Positions 5,113 through 50,140 of a stretch of DNA of 64,000 bases are shown here, piece by piece. This DNA comes from Lactococcus garvieae. GTDB taxonomy: Bacteria; Bacillota; Bacilli; Lactobacillales; Streptococcaceae. Every line of letters begins with the position of its first letter. Position 1 is the stretch's first letter. The notes under the pieces were generated by a model, which was not told the origin of the DNA, ran no database searches, and saw nothing but the letters and a program-made list of their open reading frames with translations. The stretch spans positions 310,001 to 374,000 of the forward strand of contig NZ_CP065691.1 in the NCBI RefSeq assembly GCF_016027715.1. Reading direction: 5' to 3'. A program made the position numbers and the translations under genes.

Positions 5113-5550
5113 ATGAAAAAGGTTGCAATTATTGGAATGGTTGCTTTATGTGGGATATCATTGAGTGCTTGTTCTCAGAACAAAGATTCAGCTGAGACAA
5201 AAGAAAGTACTACACAGAGTACCGAACAAAGTACAACAGAAATTACTGTACCAGAAAGAACTTTAACCTTAGATGAAAATGTGACAACGAATATTCTTGG
5301 TTATTTTAAGGTTGAGGGGCAAACAGAGCCTAACTCAGAATATACAGTTGATTATGGTACATTACATAAGGTTGAAACATCAGATGATTATGGAGGCATT
5401 TTAATTGGTTTGAGATTAAGTGATGATGTTATGGGTAGTCCTGTTTATGTCACTGTTAATGAGGGTACTGATAAGGAAATAAAAAAAGAGGCTTTTGCTA
5501 CTCATAGCTATGATTCATATATGAGAATTAAAAGAGCAAAAGGTGAATAA
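5113..5550 (+). CDS. Small lipoprotein, candidate superinfection-exclusion factor
   Basis: 145-residue lipoprotein. A signal peptide (residues 1-20) ends in the lipobox LSAC, with lipidation expected at Cys20. A Ser/Thr/Glu/Gln-rich linker (about 22-45) and a compact beta-rich C-terminal domain follow. AAGGAG precedes ATG 5113. The position just after int, in the lysogeny region, matches prophage lipoproteins such as Ltp of Streptococcus thermophilus TP-J34, which block DNA entry of related phages. The sequence itself is not one I recognise, so the exclusion role is inference from position and type. Confidence 0.75.
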   Translation: MKKVAIIGMVALCGISLSACSQNKDSAETKESTTQSTEQSTTEITVPERTLTLDENVTTNILGYFKVEGQTEPNSEYTVDYGTLHKVETSDDYGGILIGLRLSDDVMGSPVYVTVNEGTDKEIKKEAFATHSYDSYMRIKRAKGE

Positions 5551-9179: not shown

Positions 9180-10145
9180 ATGATTAGTATTAAAGAAAAA
9201 GAGTTATTGATTAAAGAGATTATTGCGTTAACTGATACAGACCTTATGTATCTCAAAGAGTTAGATAGCGATGTTGATTATGATTGGAAGTATTTTGTTG
9301 CTTATAGGATTCGTGCAATGATTATGAAAAGGACATTAGAGCATAATCAACGTACAGCGATGTTCGCTGGTAAAGAACAGGCTGAACGCTTTGAGATGTT
9401 GAATGGTTATGTTTCTACATTATATGATGTAGATTATATTAGAAATGTTATTGATTGGGATGCAATATTTGTAGACCATGATTATCGCAGTGTTGCTGAA
9501 AATAAAGAGGATGTTATCAGAGTATTCGGCTATGAGGGATTCATAGAGTTCTTGGAATTAGTGGTTGAGTTTGATTTCATGAATAAGAATAGTGAGACCT
9601 TCAAAAATTTGTATAATGACTTTAGTTATGATATGCTTCCACTATTCAGGAAAGCACTGAGTAGAGCACTTGATTCTACAGACTTTACATTAAGTAACAG
9701 AGAGATAGCTACTTATGTTAATAAGGTTGTTGCTCATAAGTATTATGACTTAAAGCTTGAAAGCGATGGTAAGATAAGAGTTAAACACGGTGACAAATAT
9801 TATTACCCAGTTGCTAAGTTCAACGAGGAACAGGATGCTTGGATGTTGTTTATGAATAGAACATTTAGTTATATTGGTGTTGAACCATTAGAGGATGTAC
9901 TTACTAAGAAACAGTTCGAGTTCTTAAAGAGTGCATATGAGATATCTCAGAGCCACTATGAGAATAGAGATAAAGATTTCTTCAGATGGAATCATAAAGG
10001 CAGAATGATTGTTAACAAGAATTGTTTGGCAAAAGAGATTGGTGTGAGTGAACCTAACTACACTCAAACAATGAAAAGAATCAATCAAAGAATTGATATT
10101 GTGTGGGCTGACTTATTAAAAGCTGGCTTAAAGAAAATTGCATAA
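9180..10145 (+). CDS. Hypothetical early protein (321 aa)
   Basis: 321 residues, helical, acidic to neutral, no signal or membrane segment. GGAGAGG lies before the ATG. I do not recognise a family. The C-terminal stretch (SEPNYTQTMKRINQRIDIVWADL) looks like a helix-turn-helix-type end. Being the largest unassigned gene between replication and packaging modules, it could be a replication partner or a late regulator; this is inference from place only. Confidence 0.65.
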   Translation: MISIKEKELLIKEIIALTDTDLMYLKELDSDVDYDWKYFVAYRIRAMIMKRTLEHNQRTAMFAGKEQAERFEMLNGYVSTLYDVDYIRNVIDWDAIFVDHDYRSVAENKEDVIRVFGYEGFIEFLELVVEFDFMNKNSETFKNLYNDFSYDMLPLFRKALSRALDSTDFTLSNREIATYVNKVVAHKYYDLKLESDGKIRVKHGDKYYYPVAKFNEEQDAWMLFMNRTFSYIGVEPLEDVLTKKQFEFLKSAYEISQSHYENRDKDFFRWNHKGRMIVNKNCLAKEIGVSEPNYTQTMKRINQRIDIVWADLLKAGLKKIA

Positions 10146-11185: not shown

Positions 11186-11237
11186 TATGCCATGTGAAGA
11201 TTGGTTCTATGAAGATTAAATTGTTTTGACAACAGTA

Positions 11238-11295
11238 AGCTGTAAGGGTTAAGGTTGGTTCGATTCCAACAACAGCTATAAGCACTTAAGTGCTT
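11238..11295 (+). ncRNA. tRNA-like minihelix unit 1 plus hairpin
   Basis: AGCTGT (11238-11243) pairs with ACAGCT (11272-11277). Inside lies a 10-nt linker containing GGGTT and a T-arm, GTTGG-TTCGATT-CCAAC (11254-11270). A78 takes the place of a discriminator base; no CCA is encoded. No D-stem and no anticodon arm are present. A perfect 16-nt palindrome (AAGCACTTAAGTGCTT, 11280-11295) follows. Canonical tRNA is excluded by length. Confidence 0.7.
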
Positions 11296-11363
11296 TATCT
11301 AAGTTTACTATTACATTCCTCCTATTATGTTATGTGAACTAGAGACATACCCACTATGTTTCT

Positions 11364-11429
11364 TAGATACCCTAGGTAGGTCAATGTGGGTTCGATACCC
11401 ACTGTATCTATTGCTTGTAATGAGCAAGC
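11364..11429 (+). ncRNA. tRNA-like minihelix unit 2 plus hairpin
   Basis: TAGATAC (11364-11370) pairs over 7 bp with GTATCTA (11404-11410). The linker is 15 nt with AGGTAGG. T-arm: GTGGG-TTCGATA-CCCAC (11386-11402). The following hairpin is GCTTG (11413-11417) with CAAGC (11425-11429) and a 7-nt loop. Stem sequences differ from unit 1, but the fold is identical. Confidence 0.72.
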
Positions 11430-11461
11430 CATTTAATAACTCCTACTTTACTACTATGGTA

Positions 11462-11521
11462 AGCAACATTGGTTTAACTACAGTTCGACTCTGTAGGTTG
11501 CTATTGGATTTAATAATCCAA
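11462..11521 (+). ncRNA. tRNA-like minihelix unit 3 plus hairpin
   Basis: AGCAAC (11462-11467) pairs with GTTGCT (11497-11502). The linker ATTGGTTTAAC carries GGTTT. T-arm: TACAG-TTCGACT-CTGTA (11479-11495), extendable by a C-G pair. The discriminator position is A11503. The next base begins a 7-bp hairpin, TTGGATT with AATCCAA (11504-11521). Confidence 0.72.
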
Positions 11522-11552
11522 AGTTCTTTTATTCCTTATTTATTTCTCTTAG

Positions 11553-11623
11553 TAGCTGTGATGGTTCGTTAGAAAGAGTTCGATTCTCTTTGCAGTTATT
11601 GGTTAGACATAAGAGCTAACCAA
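11553..11623 (+). ncRNA. tRNA-like minihelix unit 4 plus hairpin
   Basis: AGCTGTG (11554-11560) pairs with TGCAGTT (11591-11597), including G-U pairs; T11553-A11598 can extend it. The linker carries ATGGTTCGTTAG. T-arm: AAGAG-TTCGATT-CTCTT (11574-11590). The hairpin starts immediately: TTGGTTAG (11599-11606) with CTAACCAA (11616-11623), 8 bp. Confidence 0.72.
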
Positions 11624-12046: not shown

Positions 12047-12571
12047 ATGAGCAAGATTGATGAATTGAATAGTGAAAACGTTACAGCAGAAATTATTAAG
12101 AAAATTGAATCTGGAGCTACAGATATGAAAATATATAAAGCTCTCGGTGTCACAAACAAAACTTTTGATAAGTGGAAAGCTGAACATCAAGAGGAGTATG
12201 AGTTAGCGAAACAAAATGCTCACATCATCGCTCTCACCAAAGTTGAGGCTAAGCTAAACAAAAAAGTCCGTGGTGGATGGCGCAGAAAAGAAAAGTATGA
12301 GGTTGTCGATGGTGAGGAAATACTTGTATCTGTTGAGAGACAACAAGTTGACCCTTCTGAGAATGCTATCATCTTTTGGTTACGTTCTCATGCACCAGAA
12401 ATTTATGACCGTGCAACTATGAAACGATTAGAGCTAGAGGAAAAATCTACTGAGAATATTCAAGATATTATAAAGAAATTATCTGAGTTCAATGTTAACA
12501 ACTATACAAAAGATAACGTTGAGGTTACAGAGGATGAGATTAACAAGTTATTAGAGGAGGATTCAGAATGA
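12047..12571 (+). CDS. Terminase small subunit
   Basis: 174 residues. An N-terminal helix-turn-helix (about 15-55, IKKIESGATDMKIYKALGVT) binds packaging-site DNA. The middle part and the stretch about residues 105-125 (DPSENAIIFWLRSHAPEIYD) are typical of phage small-terminase/DNA-binding proteins. AGAAAGGA lies upstream. It forms a complex with the large subunit encoded 190 bp downstream. Confidence 0.82.
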   Translation: MSKIDELNSENVTAEIIKKIESGATDMKIYKALGVTNKTFDKWKAEHQEEYELAKQNAHIIALTKVEAKLNKKVRGGWRRKEKYEVVDGEEILVSVERQQVDPSENAIIFWLRSHAPEIYDRATMKRLELEEKSTENIQDIIKKLSEFNVNNYTKDNVEVTEDEINKLLEEDSE

Positions 12572-12762: not shown

Positions 12763-14391
12763 TTGAAGTATTTAAAAGAGTATCTAGAATACAACAAAGA
12801 AAATAATATTCGTATGAATAAAGACATACGTAGACAGATTCAAAAACAGATACGTATTCATAAAAAATATATCTATCATCCTGAAAAAGTAGAACAAGCA
12901 ATTGACTTTATTGAAAGTAATTTCATGTTAACAACTGGTCAATTACAAGGCATTACGTTGTTACCGCCTCAAAAATGGTGGTATGAATTAATGCTTGGTT
13001 ACTACATGATTGATGAAAATGGCGATGAGGTCTTGTTAGTTAACGAGGTCTTTTTAAATGTCGGTCGTGGAACTGGTAAATCAACACTTATGGCAACACG
13101 AGTACTTGACTGGATGATTCTTGGTGGTCAGTTTGGTGGAACAAGTCAAATTATTGCCTATGATAACAACCAAGCAAAACATGTGTTTGACCAAGTAAGA
13201 GACCAAAGTAGAGCATCACTCTTGTTATCTGAAATGGATGATTTCAATATGTTCAACTCTACTAAACAAGGTCTTAAGTTTGAATCTATGAACACTAAGT
13301 TTGGTAAACAAACAAATGATGTTAATAGAGCACAAGGTGGTGATACTAGTTTGAATGTCTTTGATGAGGTTCATGTTTACAAAGATGACATCACAGAGGC
13401 TGTTAACAAAGGTTCTCGTATGAAACAAAAGAACTGGCAATCAATCTATATCACAAGTGGTGGAACAACTCGTAAGGGTCTGTATGACAAGCTTATCAAG
13501 CGTTTCACTAGTGATGCTGAATTTGAAAATGATAGGTCAGTATCTTTGATTTATAGACTTGAGAATGTAGACCAAGTTAAAGATAAACGTAACTGGTCAA
13601 TGGCTTTACCTCTGATTGGTAAGTTACCACGTTGGTCATCTGTAGAGGAAGAATATGAATTATCTAAAGGAGACCCAGCGTTACAAGTTAAGTTTCTAGC
13701 AATGTCAATGGGGATTGCAATGAATGATGTTCATGGTTACTTTACAGCTGGTGAGGTTATGAAACGTGAGTTTGATATGAATGTCTTTAGAAATGCCAAG
13801 ACATACGTTGGCATTGACTTAGCATTACACGGTGATTTAACATCAATTGCTTTTCTTACTCGTAAAGATGAAAGCTATTACTTACACACAATCAACTTTA
13901 CTACTCGTAAAGAGTTTGACAATCTCGATTATGACTTGCAAGAGCTATATATGAGATTTGAGGAAGAGGGGTCACTTATCATTCTTGACACTGGGAATGA
14001 TTATATGAAAGCAAAAGACCTCATCCCTTACATGGCTAAATTTAAGAAAGACACAGGATGTATATTCTCAATGGTTGGTTATGACAGAGCTAGATATGAG
14101 GTTCTTGAGAAACTAATTGAAAAGTTTTTCTTTGATAAAGACGGTGATAAACAGAAAGAGGTTCGACAAGGTTTTGCAATGTCTGATTACATCAAGATAT
14201 TTAAGTCTCAGATGAAACAAGGTGAGATTTATCATAACCAAGAATTACTTGAATGGTCGTTCATGAATGTTGCTGTGAAGGTCGGAACAAGTGATGACTT
14301 AATGTTTAAAAAGACAACTAACAGCAAAAAGATTGACCCACCAGTTGCTAGTGTCATAGCTCTACAAACCATGCTTAGAGATGAGTATTAA
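12763..14391 (+). CDS. terL: Terminase large subunit
   Basis: 542 residues, the usual length. The N-terminal ATPase has a Walker A at VGRGTGKSTLMA (about 103-114) and a Walker B-like NVFDEVHVYKD (about 197-207). The C-terminal nuclease has VGIDLALHGDLTS (first Asp) and LIILDTGNDY. Terminase_1/HK97-type packaging motor, acting at the portal. Start is TTG 12763 with AAAGGAA upstream; TTG starts recur in this phage. Confidence 0.93.
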   Translation: MKYLKEYLEYNKENNIRMNKDIRRQIQKQIRIHKKYIYHPEKVEQAIDFIESNFMLTTGQLQGITLLPPQKWWYELMLGYYMIDENGDEVLLVNEVFLNVGRGTGKSTLMATRVLDWMILGGQFGGTSQIIAYDNNQAKHVFDQVRDQSRASLLLSEMDDFNMFNSTKQGLKFESMNTKFGKQTNDVNRAQGGDTSLNVFDEVHVYKDDITEAVNKGSRMKQKNWQSIYITSGGTTRKGLYDKLIKRFTSDAEFENDRSVSLIYRLENVDQVKDKRNWSMALPLIGKLPRWSSVEEEYELSKGDPALQVKFLAMSMGIAMNDVHGYFTAGEVMKREFDMNVFRNAKTYVGIDLALHGDLTSIAFLTRKDESYYLHTINFTTRKEFDNLDYDLQELYMRFEEEGSLIILDTGNDYMKAKDLIPYMAKFKKDTGCIFSMVGYDRARYEVLEKLIEKFFFDKDGDKQKEVRQGFAMSDYIKIFKSQMKQGEIYHNQELLEWSFMNVAVKVGTSDDLMFKKTTNSKKIDPPVASVIALQTMLRDEY

Positions 14392-27722: not shown

Positions 27723-29010
27723 CATTAACGATTTTGTCGAGTTCATCGCCAATTCTTTTGACAATCCCTGTAACCAAAGCATTTCCCATGAAAAACATTC
27801 TCATCCGAGTGCTTACTTCCGAGATTATTCCATTCTCATCTTTTTTAAACTTTGTCCAATTGTCTGGAAAGTCTTGGATTCTTTCAGCTTCAATTGGTGT
27901 TAGTAAGCGATAGCGATTGTTAATCTTTAAAAAGTGAGTTGAACGATTGACAGACCCTTCACTTGTCAACATGGTTCTAGCTGGTAAATCTAAGCTATCA
28001 TAGGGAGACATCCCACCTTCTGAATAAATCCATTTATGCCCATCAGGTGTCGTTCTTTCAATTTTTTTAGCACCACGTAGATATTTATATTTTTCTAATT
28101 TATCCTCATCAGTAACATAAAATTCTTCTGGGATATACTTTTCATCTTGTATAATATCTTTGAGGGGGATGGGAGTTTCTTTTATTGGTTCAGTATCAAT
28201 AGTAAAGTAACGACCATGGCGCATTATACCAGTATTCCATACAGTACCAGTAAATTCATCTGAAACTTTTACAACATCATTAGATAATTCATAAAATGCT
28301 GAGCGATTTTTATATGGCTCTTTTTTTATAGGAAACTGACGTGCAAATAACCCTTTATTGAATATATAATCATCATATAAGCCCTCGATGTCAGTTAAAT
28401 CACTTATTTTAGATTCAAACTCTAAATCCATTTTTTTAGCAAATCTTGTATCATTTTTATAAACATAAAAGAAGACACGGCGTCTTCTTTGAGCGCGTCC
28501 GTAATCAGCAGCATTAATCACACGCCATTCGACCGAATAATCTAAAGAATTGAAAGCAGATAGCATAATCGCAAAATCACGTCCTCTTTGATTTGATGGA
28601 GATTTTAATAATCTGTCAACATTTTCTAAAATTAGGTATTTAGGTTTAATAAATCTCACAGCTCTTATGATTTGCCAAAAAAGGACACCTTTTTTACCTT
28701 CTATTCCCATCTCATTCTTCTTGGAACGAGCAACGGAGTAGTCTTGACATGGAAAACCTCCAACAATCATATTCACTCCATTATTGTACATTTCTTTGAA
28801 TTTTTTGTCGGGGATAAGTTCGACATCAATATTAATATGTTCCATATCAGGAAAGTTATGAACGCCGACTTCATAAGCATCTTGGGATTTTCTAGATGGC
28901 TCATATTGATTAGAATAGATTGTTTTATAAAGTTCTTCATTTGAATTATTTAAACCCAAAATGAATCCACCTACTCCATCAAACATTGAAAATATTTTTA
29001 ATTTTTCCAT
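27703..29010 (-). CDS. DNA cytosine-5 methyltransferase (type II R-M, Sau3AI-like)
   Basis: 435 residues. C5-methyltransferase motifs in order: I FSMFDGVGGF (about 7-16), IV with catalytic cysteine GGFPCQDYSVA (about 86), VI ENVDRLL, VIII QRRRRVFFY, a variable target-recognition region about 215-340, and late motifs IX-X including RLLTPIEAERIQDFP and FFMGNALV. It is divergent from the partner nuclease, whose family indicates GATC with m5C modification. In lactococci LlaKR2I is a known Sau3AI isoschizomer. Starts ATG 29010 with AAGGAAG upstream. Confidence 0.9.
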   Translation of the reverse strand: MEKLKIFSMFDGVGGFILGLNNSNEELYKTIYSNQYEPSRKSQDAYEVGVHNFPDMEHINIDVELIPDKKFKEMYNNGVNMIVGGFPCQDYSVARSKKNEMGIEGKKGVLFWQIIRAVRFIKPKYLILENVDRLLKSPSNQRGRDFAIMLSAFNSLDYSVEWRVINAADYGRAQRRRRVFFYVYKNDTRFAKKMDLEFESKISDLTDIEGLYDDYIFNKGLFARQFPIKKEPYKNRSAFYELSNDVVKVSDEFTGTVWNTGIMRHGRYFTIDTEPIKETPIPLKDIIQDEKYIPEEFYVTDEDKLEKYKYLRGAKKIERTTPDGHKWIYSEGGMSPYDSLDLPARTMLTSEGSVNRSTHFLKINNRYRLLTPIEAERIQDFPDNWTKFKKDENGIISEVSTRMRMFFMGNALVTGIVKRIGDELDKIVNEKDMYL

Positions 29011-42637: not shown

Positions 42638-42662
42638 ACTAAGGATAAAACTTTTAAACTGG

Positions 42663-42770
42663 TCCAGAGAGGCTAGCAAGGTTGTGAACATGAATATTAG
42701 ACTCTTTTTTCAAAAAGGGTATACTCTATCTTCTTTACACCTGCTCTTCTTGCAGGTGTTTTTTCTTAGA
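42663..42770 (+). promoter_or_regulatory. PyrR-dependent attenuator leader of carB
   Basis: TCCAGAGAGGCTAGCAAGG (42663-42681) is the conserved PyrR-binding anti-antiterminator loop. A terminator follows: ACACCTGC (42737-42744) with GCAGGTGT (42752-42759) and a T-run. With UMP or UTP, PyrR binds and favours termination. A twin of this leader precedes pyrK. Confidence 0.9.
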
Positions 42771-49940: not shown

Positions 49941-49961
49941 ACTTTAAAACCTTTAACTTAG

Positions 49962-50086
49962 TCCAGAGAGGCTAGCAAGGATACGATTAATTATATCTAT
50001 TTTCCGACATGAATTTTTATGATTTGTGCAGAAATAGATAGACTCTTTTTGTACACCTGCAGTTTATACTCTGCAGGTGTTTTTTC
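49962..50086 (+). promoter_or_regulatory. PyrR-dependent attenuator leader of pyrK-pyrDB-pyrF
   Basis: TCCAGAGAGGCTAGCAAGG (49962-49980), identical to the carB leader, and a terminator ACACCTGCAG (50053-50062) with CTGCAGGTGT (50071-50080) plus T-run. Same PyrR attenuation. Confidence 0.9.
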
Positions 50087-50140
50087 TTCAACTTGCAGAT
50101 CTATCGGATAACACAATGTTTTTTACAGAAGGAGGAAGTG

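Follow-up and report, generated by a model that had tools for sequence, protein, structure and literature searches.

Anticodon-less tRNA-like units in phages and prophages of lactic acid bacteria, with a possible part in RNA processing at operon boundaries

Four tRNA-like units before the terminase gene of a Lactococcus garvieae prophage

The window, by which we mean the whole 64,000-nucleotide stretch of Lactococcus garvieae DNA analysed here (contig NZ_CP065691.1, positions 310,001 to 374,000), includes a prophage in which four short tRNA-like units (U1 to U4) lie between the last upstream small ORFs and terS, the gene for the terminase small subunit, a placement also found in 936 phages. 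Positions are numbered within the window, as follows.

11238 to 11278, + strand: U1; acceptor AGCTGTA / AACAGCT, linker AGGGTTAAG, T arm GTTGG-TTCGATT-CCAAC, discriminator A
11280 to 11295, + strand: stem-loop directly 3' of U1 (AAGCAC-ttaa-GTGCTT)
11365 to 11410, + strand: U2; acceptor AGATACC / TGTATCT, GG in the linker, T arm GTGGG-TTCGATA-CCCAC, discriminator A
11413 to 11429, + strand: stem-loop directly 3' of U2 (GCTTG...CAAGC)
11462 to 11503, + strand: U3; acceptor AGCAACA / GGTTGCT, linker TTGGTTTAAC, T arm TACAG-TTCGACT-CTGTA, discriminator A
11504 to 11521, + strand: stem-loop directly 3' of U3 (TTGGATT-taat-AATCCAA)
11554 to 11598, + strand: U4; acceptor AGCTGTG / TGCAGTT, GG in the linker, T arm AAGAG-TTCGATT-CTCTT, discriminator A
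11599 to 11623, + strand: stem-loop directly 3' of U4 (TTGGTTAG...CTAACCAA); relatives pair with a different inner stem
12047 to 12571, + strand: terS, terminase small subunit

Four anticodon-less units had been claimed in the initial annotation, and all were present as described, both by direct reading and in a scan with an explicit definition. The units measure 41-46 nt, begin with AG, and consist of a 7-nt acceptor strand with six positions paired, a linker of 9, 14, 10, and 13 nt in U1, U2, U3, and U4, respectively, with GG in each, and a T arm with a 5-bp stem (6 bp in U3 if extended) and a TTCGANN loop, the discriminator A being followed by T. The seventh acceptor position is a mismatch in U1 to U3 (A-A, C-T, and A-G) and G-U in U4, as had been noticed for three of the four, and the 3' strand from the T loop to the discriminator is exactly 12 nt in all four units, as in tRNA. 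Behind every unit, 0 to 2 nt past its discriminator, stands a stem-loop; the initial annotation described the units correctly and omitted these stem-loops, though its end at 11623 includes the last one. Its remark that none of the units encodes CCA is true of them but not special, because 14 of the 15 distinct host tRNA genes checked also have no CCA after the gene (the 15th was unreadable).

A strict definition comprising the 12-nt acceptor-T stack, the GG linker, the TTCGANN loop, and the A discriminator gave four matches on the + strand and none on the - strand of the window. No match occurred in 5000 dinucleotide-shuffled copies of the 480-bp region, and a single one was seen when both strands of 60 shuffled copies of the whole window were scanned. 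The array stretch also folds better than its own shuffles (z -3.46). Single-sequence minimum-free-energy predictions returned the expected fold in U1 and U3 and a different or weak one in U2 and U4, for which the fold therefore rests on comparison.

Established families did not account for the array. ARAGORN called neither a tRNA nor a tmRNA in the window, and Rfam, at gathering and at permissive thresholds across the window and the related loci, assigned tRNA only to genuine tRNAs and nothing to the units, which is in line with the earlier statement that no described family with this layout was known; matches to TtnuHACA5, Flavo-1, and CRISPR-DR6 were far below threshold and were rejected as chance. 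With respect to tRNA genes (RF00005), all four units have the 12-nt acceptor-T stack with six acceptor pairs, and their linkers of 9-14 nt are too short for an anticodon arm or a D stem. The only match to tmRNA (RF00023) was a 17-nt T-arm match at 9 bits, against a threshold of 47. Fragments left at attachment sites likewise do not fit, the 5' acceptor strands being present and the array region being without a second match in the host genome. The window units and their relatives do share the features of the family that we propose, a phage operon-boundary tRNA-like element: an acceptor-T stack, a TTCRA loop, a linker with GG and no anticodon arm, a location between phage genes, and, clear in some groups of units, a stem-loop behind. 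Among the truncated units from other phages described below, none reached the Rfam gathering threshold (best, 936 slot 4, with 27.5 vs 29), and ARAGORN mostly skipped them, calling two long or odd ones as dubious tRNAs (L130; TP901-1, L213 989-1076).

Other features of the window were recorded alongside. A 10-codon micro-ORF (MPCEDWFYED, 11187-11219) directly precedes the array, and MPCEDFYYD occurs at the matching place in all five related prophages that carry units. Two PyrR binding sites were identified by Rfam at 42647-42767 and 49946-50087.

Units in related prophages and in other phages of lactic acid bacteria

Searching viral contigs with the window terS (12047) yielded seven relatives, of which five (L003, L004, L005, L006, and L008) had units upstream; in a Lactococcus hircilactis contig, terS was 61% identical to that of the window. 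The best conserved unit in these prophages is U4, which is nearly invariant. The stem of U3, AGCAAC/GTTGCT in the window, reads AGTAAT/ATTATT or AGCAAT/ATTGTT in its counterparts (in L003-L006), i.e., pairs 3 and 6 have changed on both sides, and these loci were found via terS and not via structure. Hence, orthologous units change their stems in step, on both sides, which bears out the earlier claim that pairing is under selection. In an alignment of seven sequences, 100% of cells pair, compared with 42-61% when the partners are slid, and both partners have changed at 7 of the 11 pairs, although this alignment mixes units 2, 3, and 4 and thus supports the fold rather than a count of events. 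The covariance-model search of phage genomes that had been suggested was also run and found units beyond the window prophage, and a model built without U1 and U3 recovered both (E values of 5.6e-6 for U1 and 8.9e-5 for U3). The related prophages have a further-upstream unit with a hairpin resembling an anticodon arm (L003, about 5328-5384; recognized by eye). The array had no BLASTN match in 50,697 phage records, a scan for the unit-4 pattern returned five already-known contigs and nothing more, and the gene at 9180-10145 had no relatives in the viral contigs.

Remote relatives of the window terS (about 28%) occur in lactococcal 936/Skunavirus phages, where the gene order is that of the window: a small membrane-type ORF, a non-coding interval, and terS. 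In sk1, this interval holds a tRNA-Trp, a second tRNA-like gene, and two truncated units. Within the sk1 record (L013, NC_001835), positions 27890-27908, annotated as "putative terminator for middle transcripts", correspond to the T arm of the slot-3 unit. In an end-enriched RNA-seq study of sk1 infection (PMC10986495, GSE231968), middle genes had been switched on only in part by 15 min. We followed such slots in 63 contigs of 936 type (L033-L095), located through the neighbouring RuvC gene, and compared the length of the middle that lies between acceptor and T arm. The middle of the tRNA-Trp slot is 39 nt in most phages and 16 nt in two (L061 and L084), in which the anticodon arm is gone; that of the tRNA-Pro slot goes from 40 to 23 nt, and that of the TAGGATA slot from 40 to 37 and 27 nt. 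Slot 4 has a middle of 36 nt in two contigs (L022 and L067) versus 15-18 nt elsewhere, slot 3 occurs with 26-27, 20-22, and 7 nt, and slot 5 (23 nt) has no whole-tRNA member among those seen, with one of its pairs appearing as C-G, T-G, and T-A. The anticodon arm was lost separately in the tRNA-Trp, tRNA-Pro, and other 936 slots, with acceptor and T arm still paired. To judge from these slots, the truncated 936 units derive from tRNA genes by deletion of the middle, which happened several times, and the acceptor-T half persists. This goes against the earlier argument that such units did not arise from tRNA genes by arm loss, given the anticodon arm deleted in two contigs of the tRNA-Trp slot and slot 4 occurring both ways; arm loss from intact tRNAs, which had been named as grounds for refutation, thus removes an independent origin for the units and leaves the question of function untouched.

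Because a pairing-based scan is blind to broken units, remnants were sought by BLAST and by linker anchors. Slots 4 and 5 and the tRNA slots proved nearly always paired; for example, slot 4, when picked by its linker anchor, keeps 6 or 7 acceptor pairs except in two rows with a foreign 5' strand. In roughly 14 of the 63 contigs of 936 type, slots 3 and 4 are fused through their common T-arm sequence and acceptor pairing is lost, which indicates that single units are expendable. Accordingly, to say that stems keep pairing everywhere would be too strong. The fusion site in the interval after RuvC (L033-L095) is a recombination hot spot. Separately, ARAGORN finds a tmRNA, unannotated in the record, at 440-785 of Lactococcus phage AM8 (L025, KY554773), with the tag VKTKLNIIANTQLAVA; its neighbours are tRNAs and two truncated units.

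Late leaders of P335-type phages offered a test anchored on a feature outside the units. A unit of the form AGCAAG...CTTGCTA is found in 38 viral contigs, including ul36, mostly behind an alt-like gene. The alt-terS interval of TP901-1 holds a tRNA-Lys, a long unit, and a second unit, that of ul36 one short unit, and that of CAP a tRNA-Lys alone; in all three, the same hairpin (AGGTTGTCC...GGGCAGCCT TTTATT) follows and then terS. The late promoter of TP901-1 has reportedly been studied and its start site placed at 13073, which we take to lie upstream of the tRNA-Lys, the units, and the hairpin, so that the units would be in the TP901-1 late leader. Viral contigs were then searched for the downstream hairpin alone and the preceding sequence was classified, which gave, among the matches listed, 56 P335-type leaders, none fetched before. 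A tRNA-like 3' end stands 9, 14, 15, or 16 nt before the hairpin in 48 of these 56 listed leaders, made up of 16 whole tRNAs, 18 truncated units, 2 long units, and 12 bare minihelices, and the slot is without a unit in the remaining 8; the truncated and long units together are the 20 of the 56 without a normal cloverleaf. As the leaders are related by descent and recombination, the 56 are not independent events; counted as distinct 120-nt contexts among the matches listed, 38 of 46 have a tRNA-like 3' end. The bare minihelix (AGCTTGTTAGGG-TTCGACT-CCCTGACTTGCT-A) is a 12-nt stack with two U-U mismatches. Whole tRNA, anticodon-less unit, and minihelix at one slot and spacing point to the acceptor-T half as the part that is kept, and the truncated units and bare minihelices show that this slot can do without an anticodon. 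Where the slot lacks a canonical T arm (L175, L181, L185, L186, L194, L198, and others), the leaders have other structured-looking blocks in the last 70 nt before the hairpin, mostly ending in GCTA.

Beyond these groups, the placement of the units "in the prophage" by the initial annotation is correct and yet not private to it, as relatives occur in many phages of lactic acid bacteria and in a number of other Lactobacillales elements. Four prophages, from three genomes that include the window's own (G000:C2:434238), carry a lysin-type unit 8-9 nt past the stop codon of the endolysin gene, with a stem-loop behind it, and five more such units were found in viral contigs; BLASTN of the lysin-type unit gave no match. 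Covariation of the hairpin behind these units is weak (one two-sided pair, no better than shuffles), and hence we do not claim that it is conserved as a structure. In general, the downstream stem-loop is clear in window-type, lysin-type, and P335 units and not in all others. Lactococcus prophages have units between a DUF722/late-activator gene and terS, and similar ones precede terS-like genes in prophages of the same family (L128 and L141) or lie near phage-like genes in other families. Units also occur upstream of endolysin genes (L118 and L099). Others lie close to genes that by eye resemble cro (L100), a HicAB pair (L144), and a zeta toxin gene (L137). One contig (L099, from G012) has three copies of a tRNA-like unit at about 657, 1841, and 2911, i.e., roughly 1.1-1.2 kb apart, at least two of them before an endolysin-like gene. 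The many matches of 72 nt from family and order model searches were ordinary tRNAs where checked with ARAGORN and were discarded, as were two model matches that are tmRNA tails (L132 and L133). The seventh-pair mismatch was dropped as a family trait because seven pairs are present both in 936 slot 4 and in whole tRNAs.

A possible role as processing marks, and other readings

Full tRNAs are the default substrates of bacterial RNase P and RNase Z, which counts against such short units as substrates. RNase Z trims CCA-less tRNA precursors. An RNase Z gene is present in the host genome. RNase P measures the stack of T stem and acceptor, requiring a T-loop-like structure and apparently managing without the D loop (reviewed in PMC4919913); the parts kept in the units are the parts so measured, which supports a role as punctuation for RNA processing. 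Such punctuation was one of the jobs proposed initially, and in light of slot exchange and boundary position it would be the best reading of the wider evidence. We see an even chance that the units derive from tRNAs as their top halves and are kept because they punctuate RNA processing at the boundaries of phage operons. The broader statement, that they form a widespread, tRNA-reduced class of phage RNA which recruits the host's tRNA-maturing enzymes and so sets mRNA ends at these boundaries, we would put slightly short of even.

Under this punctuation reading, a transcribed unit would adopt the shape of a 12-bp stack with an elbow like that of tRNA, to be cleaved on its 5' side by host RNase P and 3' of the discriminator (after nucleotide 73) by host RNase Z. 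After the latter cut, the downstream RNA would start with a defined 5' end at the stem-loop or a few nucleotides ahead of it, the stem-loop could shield this new end from a 5' exonuclease, and the anticodon arm, not being needed, could be lost by deletion. Transcription, cleavage, and an effect on RNA stability are what we infer here from sequence. Around the predicted cuts, N74 is T in 35 of 38 varied units, as in most host tRNAs checked, although position 74 was part of the models used and the figure is biased to that extent; among these 38 units, 25 have T at N-1 and 27 have A at N73. The positions before terS and, in four prophages, 8-9 nt past the endolysin stop are boundaries of the expected kind, whereas some units upstream of endolysin genes, upstream of a cro-like gene, or near toxin genes count against punctuation, as do bare minihelices with two U-U mismatches. 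The 8 of 56 leaders without a unit, among the matches listed, together with the roughly 14 of 63 fusions, imply that no single unit is essential.

The units might instead be tRNA pseudogenes, i.e., decaying phage tRNAs that lost the anticodon arm first by chance and are otherwise drifting, which we regard as unlikely. The descent of the truncated 936 units from whole tRNAs and the common slot 3-4 fusions with broken acceptors would suit decay, as would the tRNA sets of phages, which differ among close relatives, including the described 936 tRNAs (PMC8050962). Drift, however, would not readily explain why the middle was deleted and yet acceptor and T arm stayed paired even in the never-whole slot 5, or the acceptor pairs of slot 4 when picked by linker anchor, or the tRNA-like end at fixed spacing in 48 of the 56 hairpin-anchored leaders listed, or the similar units in unrelated phage groups. 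The fixed distance to the hairpin and the operon-boundary position are also not needed by decoys, in which abundant acceptor-T minihelices would soak up host T-arm enzymes or the defence proteins and toxins that target the T arm or acceptor end of tRNA; moreover, one unit per transcript, as in ul36, seems few for the purpose. Decoys, whose targets could include MenT/AbiE-type nucleotidyltransferases, CapRel-type enzymes, and tail-cleaving nucleases, are in our view rather improbable. AbiE-type systems do occur in lactococci, which counts for decoys, and several different units per phage would make a suitable decoy set. Attack on the acceptor end of tRNA is furthermore a known strategy of toxins and defence systems (MenT3, PMC11541572; Cas12a3, PMC12851939).

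Two further readings dispense with cutting. Unit and stem-loop together could form a stable cap, a pause, or a weak terminator that protects a 3' or 5' end; scans for terminator-like signals pick out the T arms of U2 and U3, that of slot 3 is entered in the sk1 record as a terminator of the middle operon, and units stand 8-9 nt past endolysin genes. For that purpose a plain hairpin would be enough, and neither the 12-nt stack, TTCGANN, and GG linker nor the exchange with whole tRNAs would be needed; a U-run directly after the T stems is absent, the U-rich tract in the window starting several nt past the U4 stem-loop. We judge this quite improbable. Highly improbable, in our assessment, is a role at the DNA level, in which the conserved GGTTCGATTCC blocks would serve between modules as sites of recombination or of homing endonucleases. 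The slot 3-4 fusions did arise by T-arm recombination, and in the window, as in some P335 phages, the interval is flanked by HNH genes, but compensatory acceptor changes and elbow features would go unexplained, and the T arms of U2 and U3 differ in sequence and have the same structure. A packaging RNA (pRNA-like) role, raised because of the adjacent terS, was set aside since units also follow endolysin genes.

If the punctuation reading is true, many phages of lactic acid bacteria, among them the well-known laboratory and dairy phages sk1, TP901-1, and ul36, use stripped-down tRNAs for a purpose that is not decoding, and what preserves some phage "tRNA genes" may be their processing sites and not translation. 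The whole tRNA, anticodon-less unit, and bare minihelix form a natural series at one site, from which the minimal in-cell substrate of RNase P and RNase Z could be read from evolution.

Relation to known tRNA-like elements

In mascRNA/MALAT1 and in herpesvirus TMERs, a tRNA-like element at a transcript boundary serves as a processing mark, and TMERs have hairpins directly 3' of the tRNA-like part, like the units. These elements differ from the units in being eukaryotic and in retaining more of the cloverleaf, so the likeness is one of layout and implies no relation in sequence. It is conceivable, at a little under an even chance, that the units are the bacterial-virus counterpart of these marks, with the stages between whole tRNA and bare minihelix all present in one slot. 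In the open-licence papers searched, we found no description of the truncated units.

Closer at hand, phage tRNA genes such as the tRNA-Trp and tRNA-Pro of 936 phages share slots, acceptor-T architecture, and the lack of an encoded CCA with the units, some of which, when truncated, appear to be their deletion products. Unlike them, the units have no anticodon arm and no D stem and cannot decode, and those of the window are not called by ARAGORN or Rfam. The tRNA-like domain of tmRNA, which the initial annotation had invoked, is indeed similar in anatomy, with an acceptor stem, a T arm, and a stemless D loop, whereas the units are without a P2 helix or a tag reading frame and are 41-46 nt long vs several hundred. 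Integration leaves partial tRNA genes, consisting of the T arm and the 3' acceptor strand, at integration sites (PMC9897764); the window units differ in having both acceptor strands, and their region matches nothing else in the host genome. Similar in setting is the late leader of TP901-1 (alt-terS), which like the window has tRNA-like units (two) and a terminator-like hairpin before terS, and also a tRNA-Lys, while the window prophage comes from a different phage lineage, and its units are four in number, short, and each backed by a separate stem-loop. Together, tRNA-like RNA elements are already known as a kind, and the units are a variant of it.
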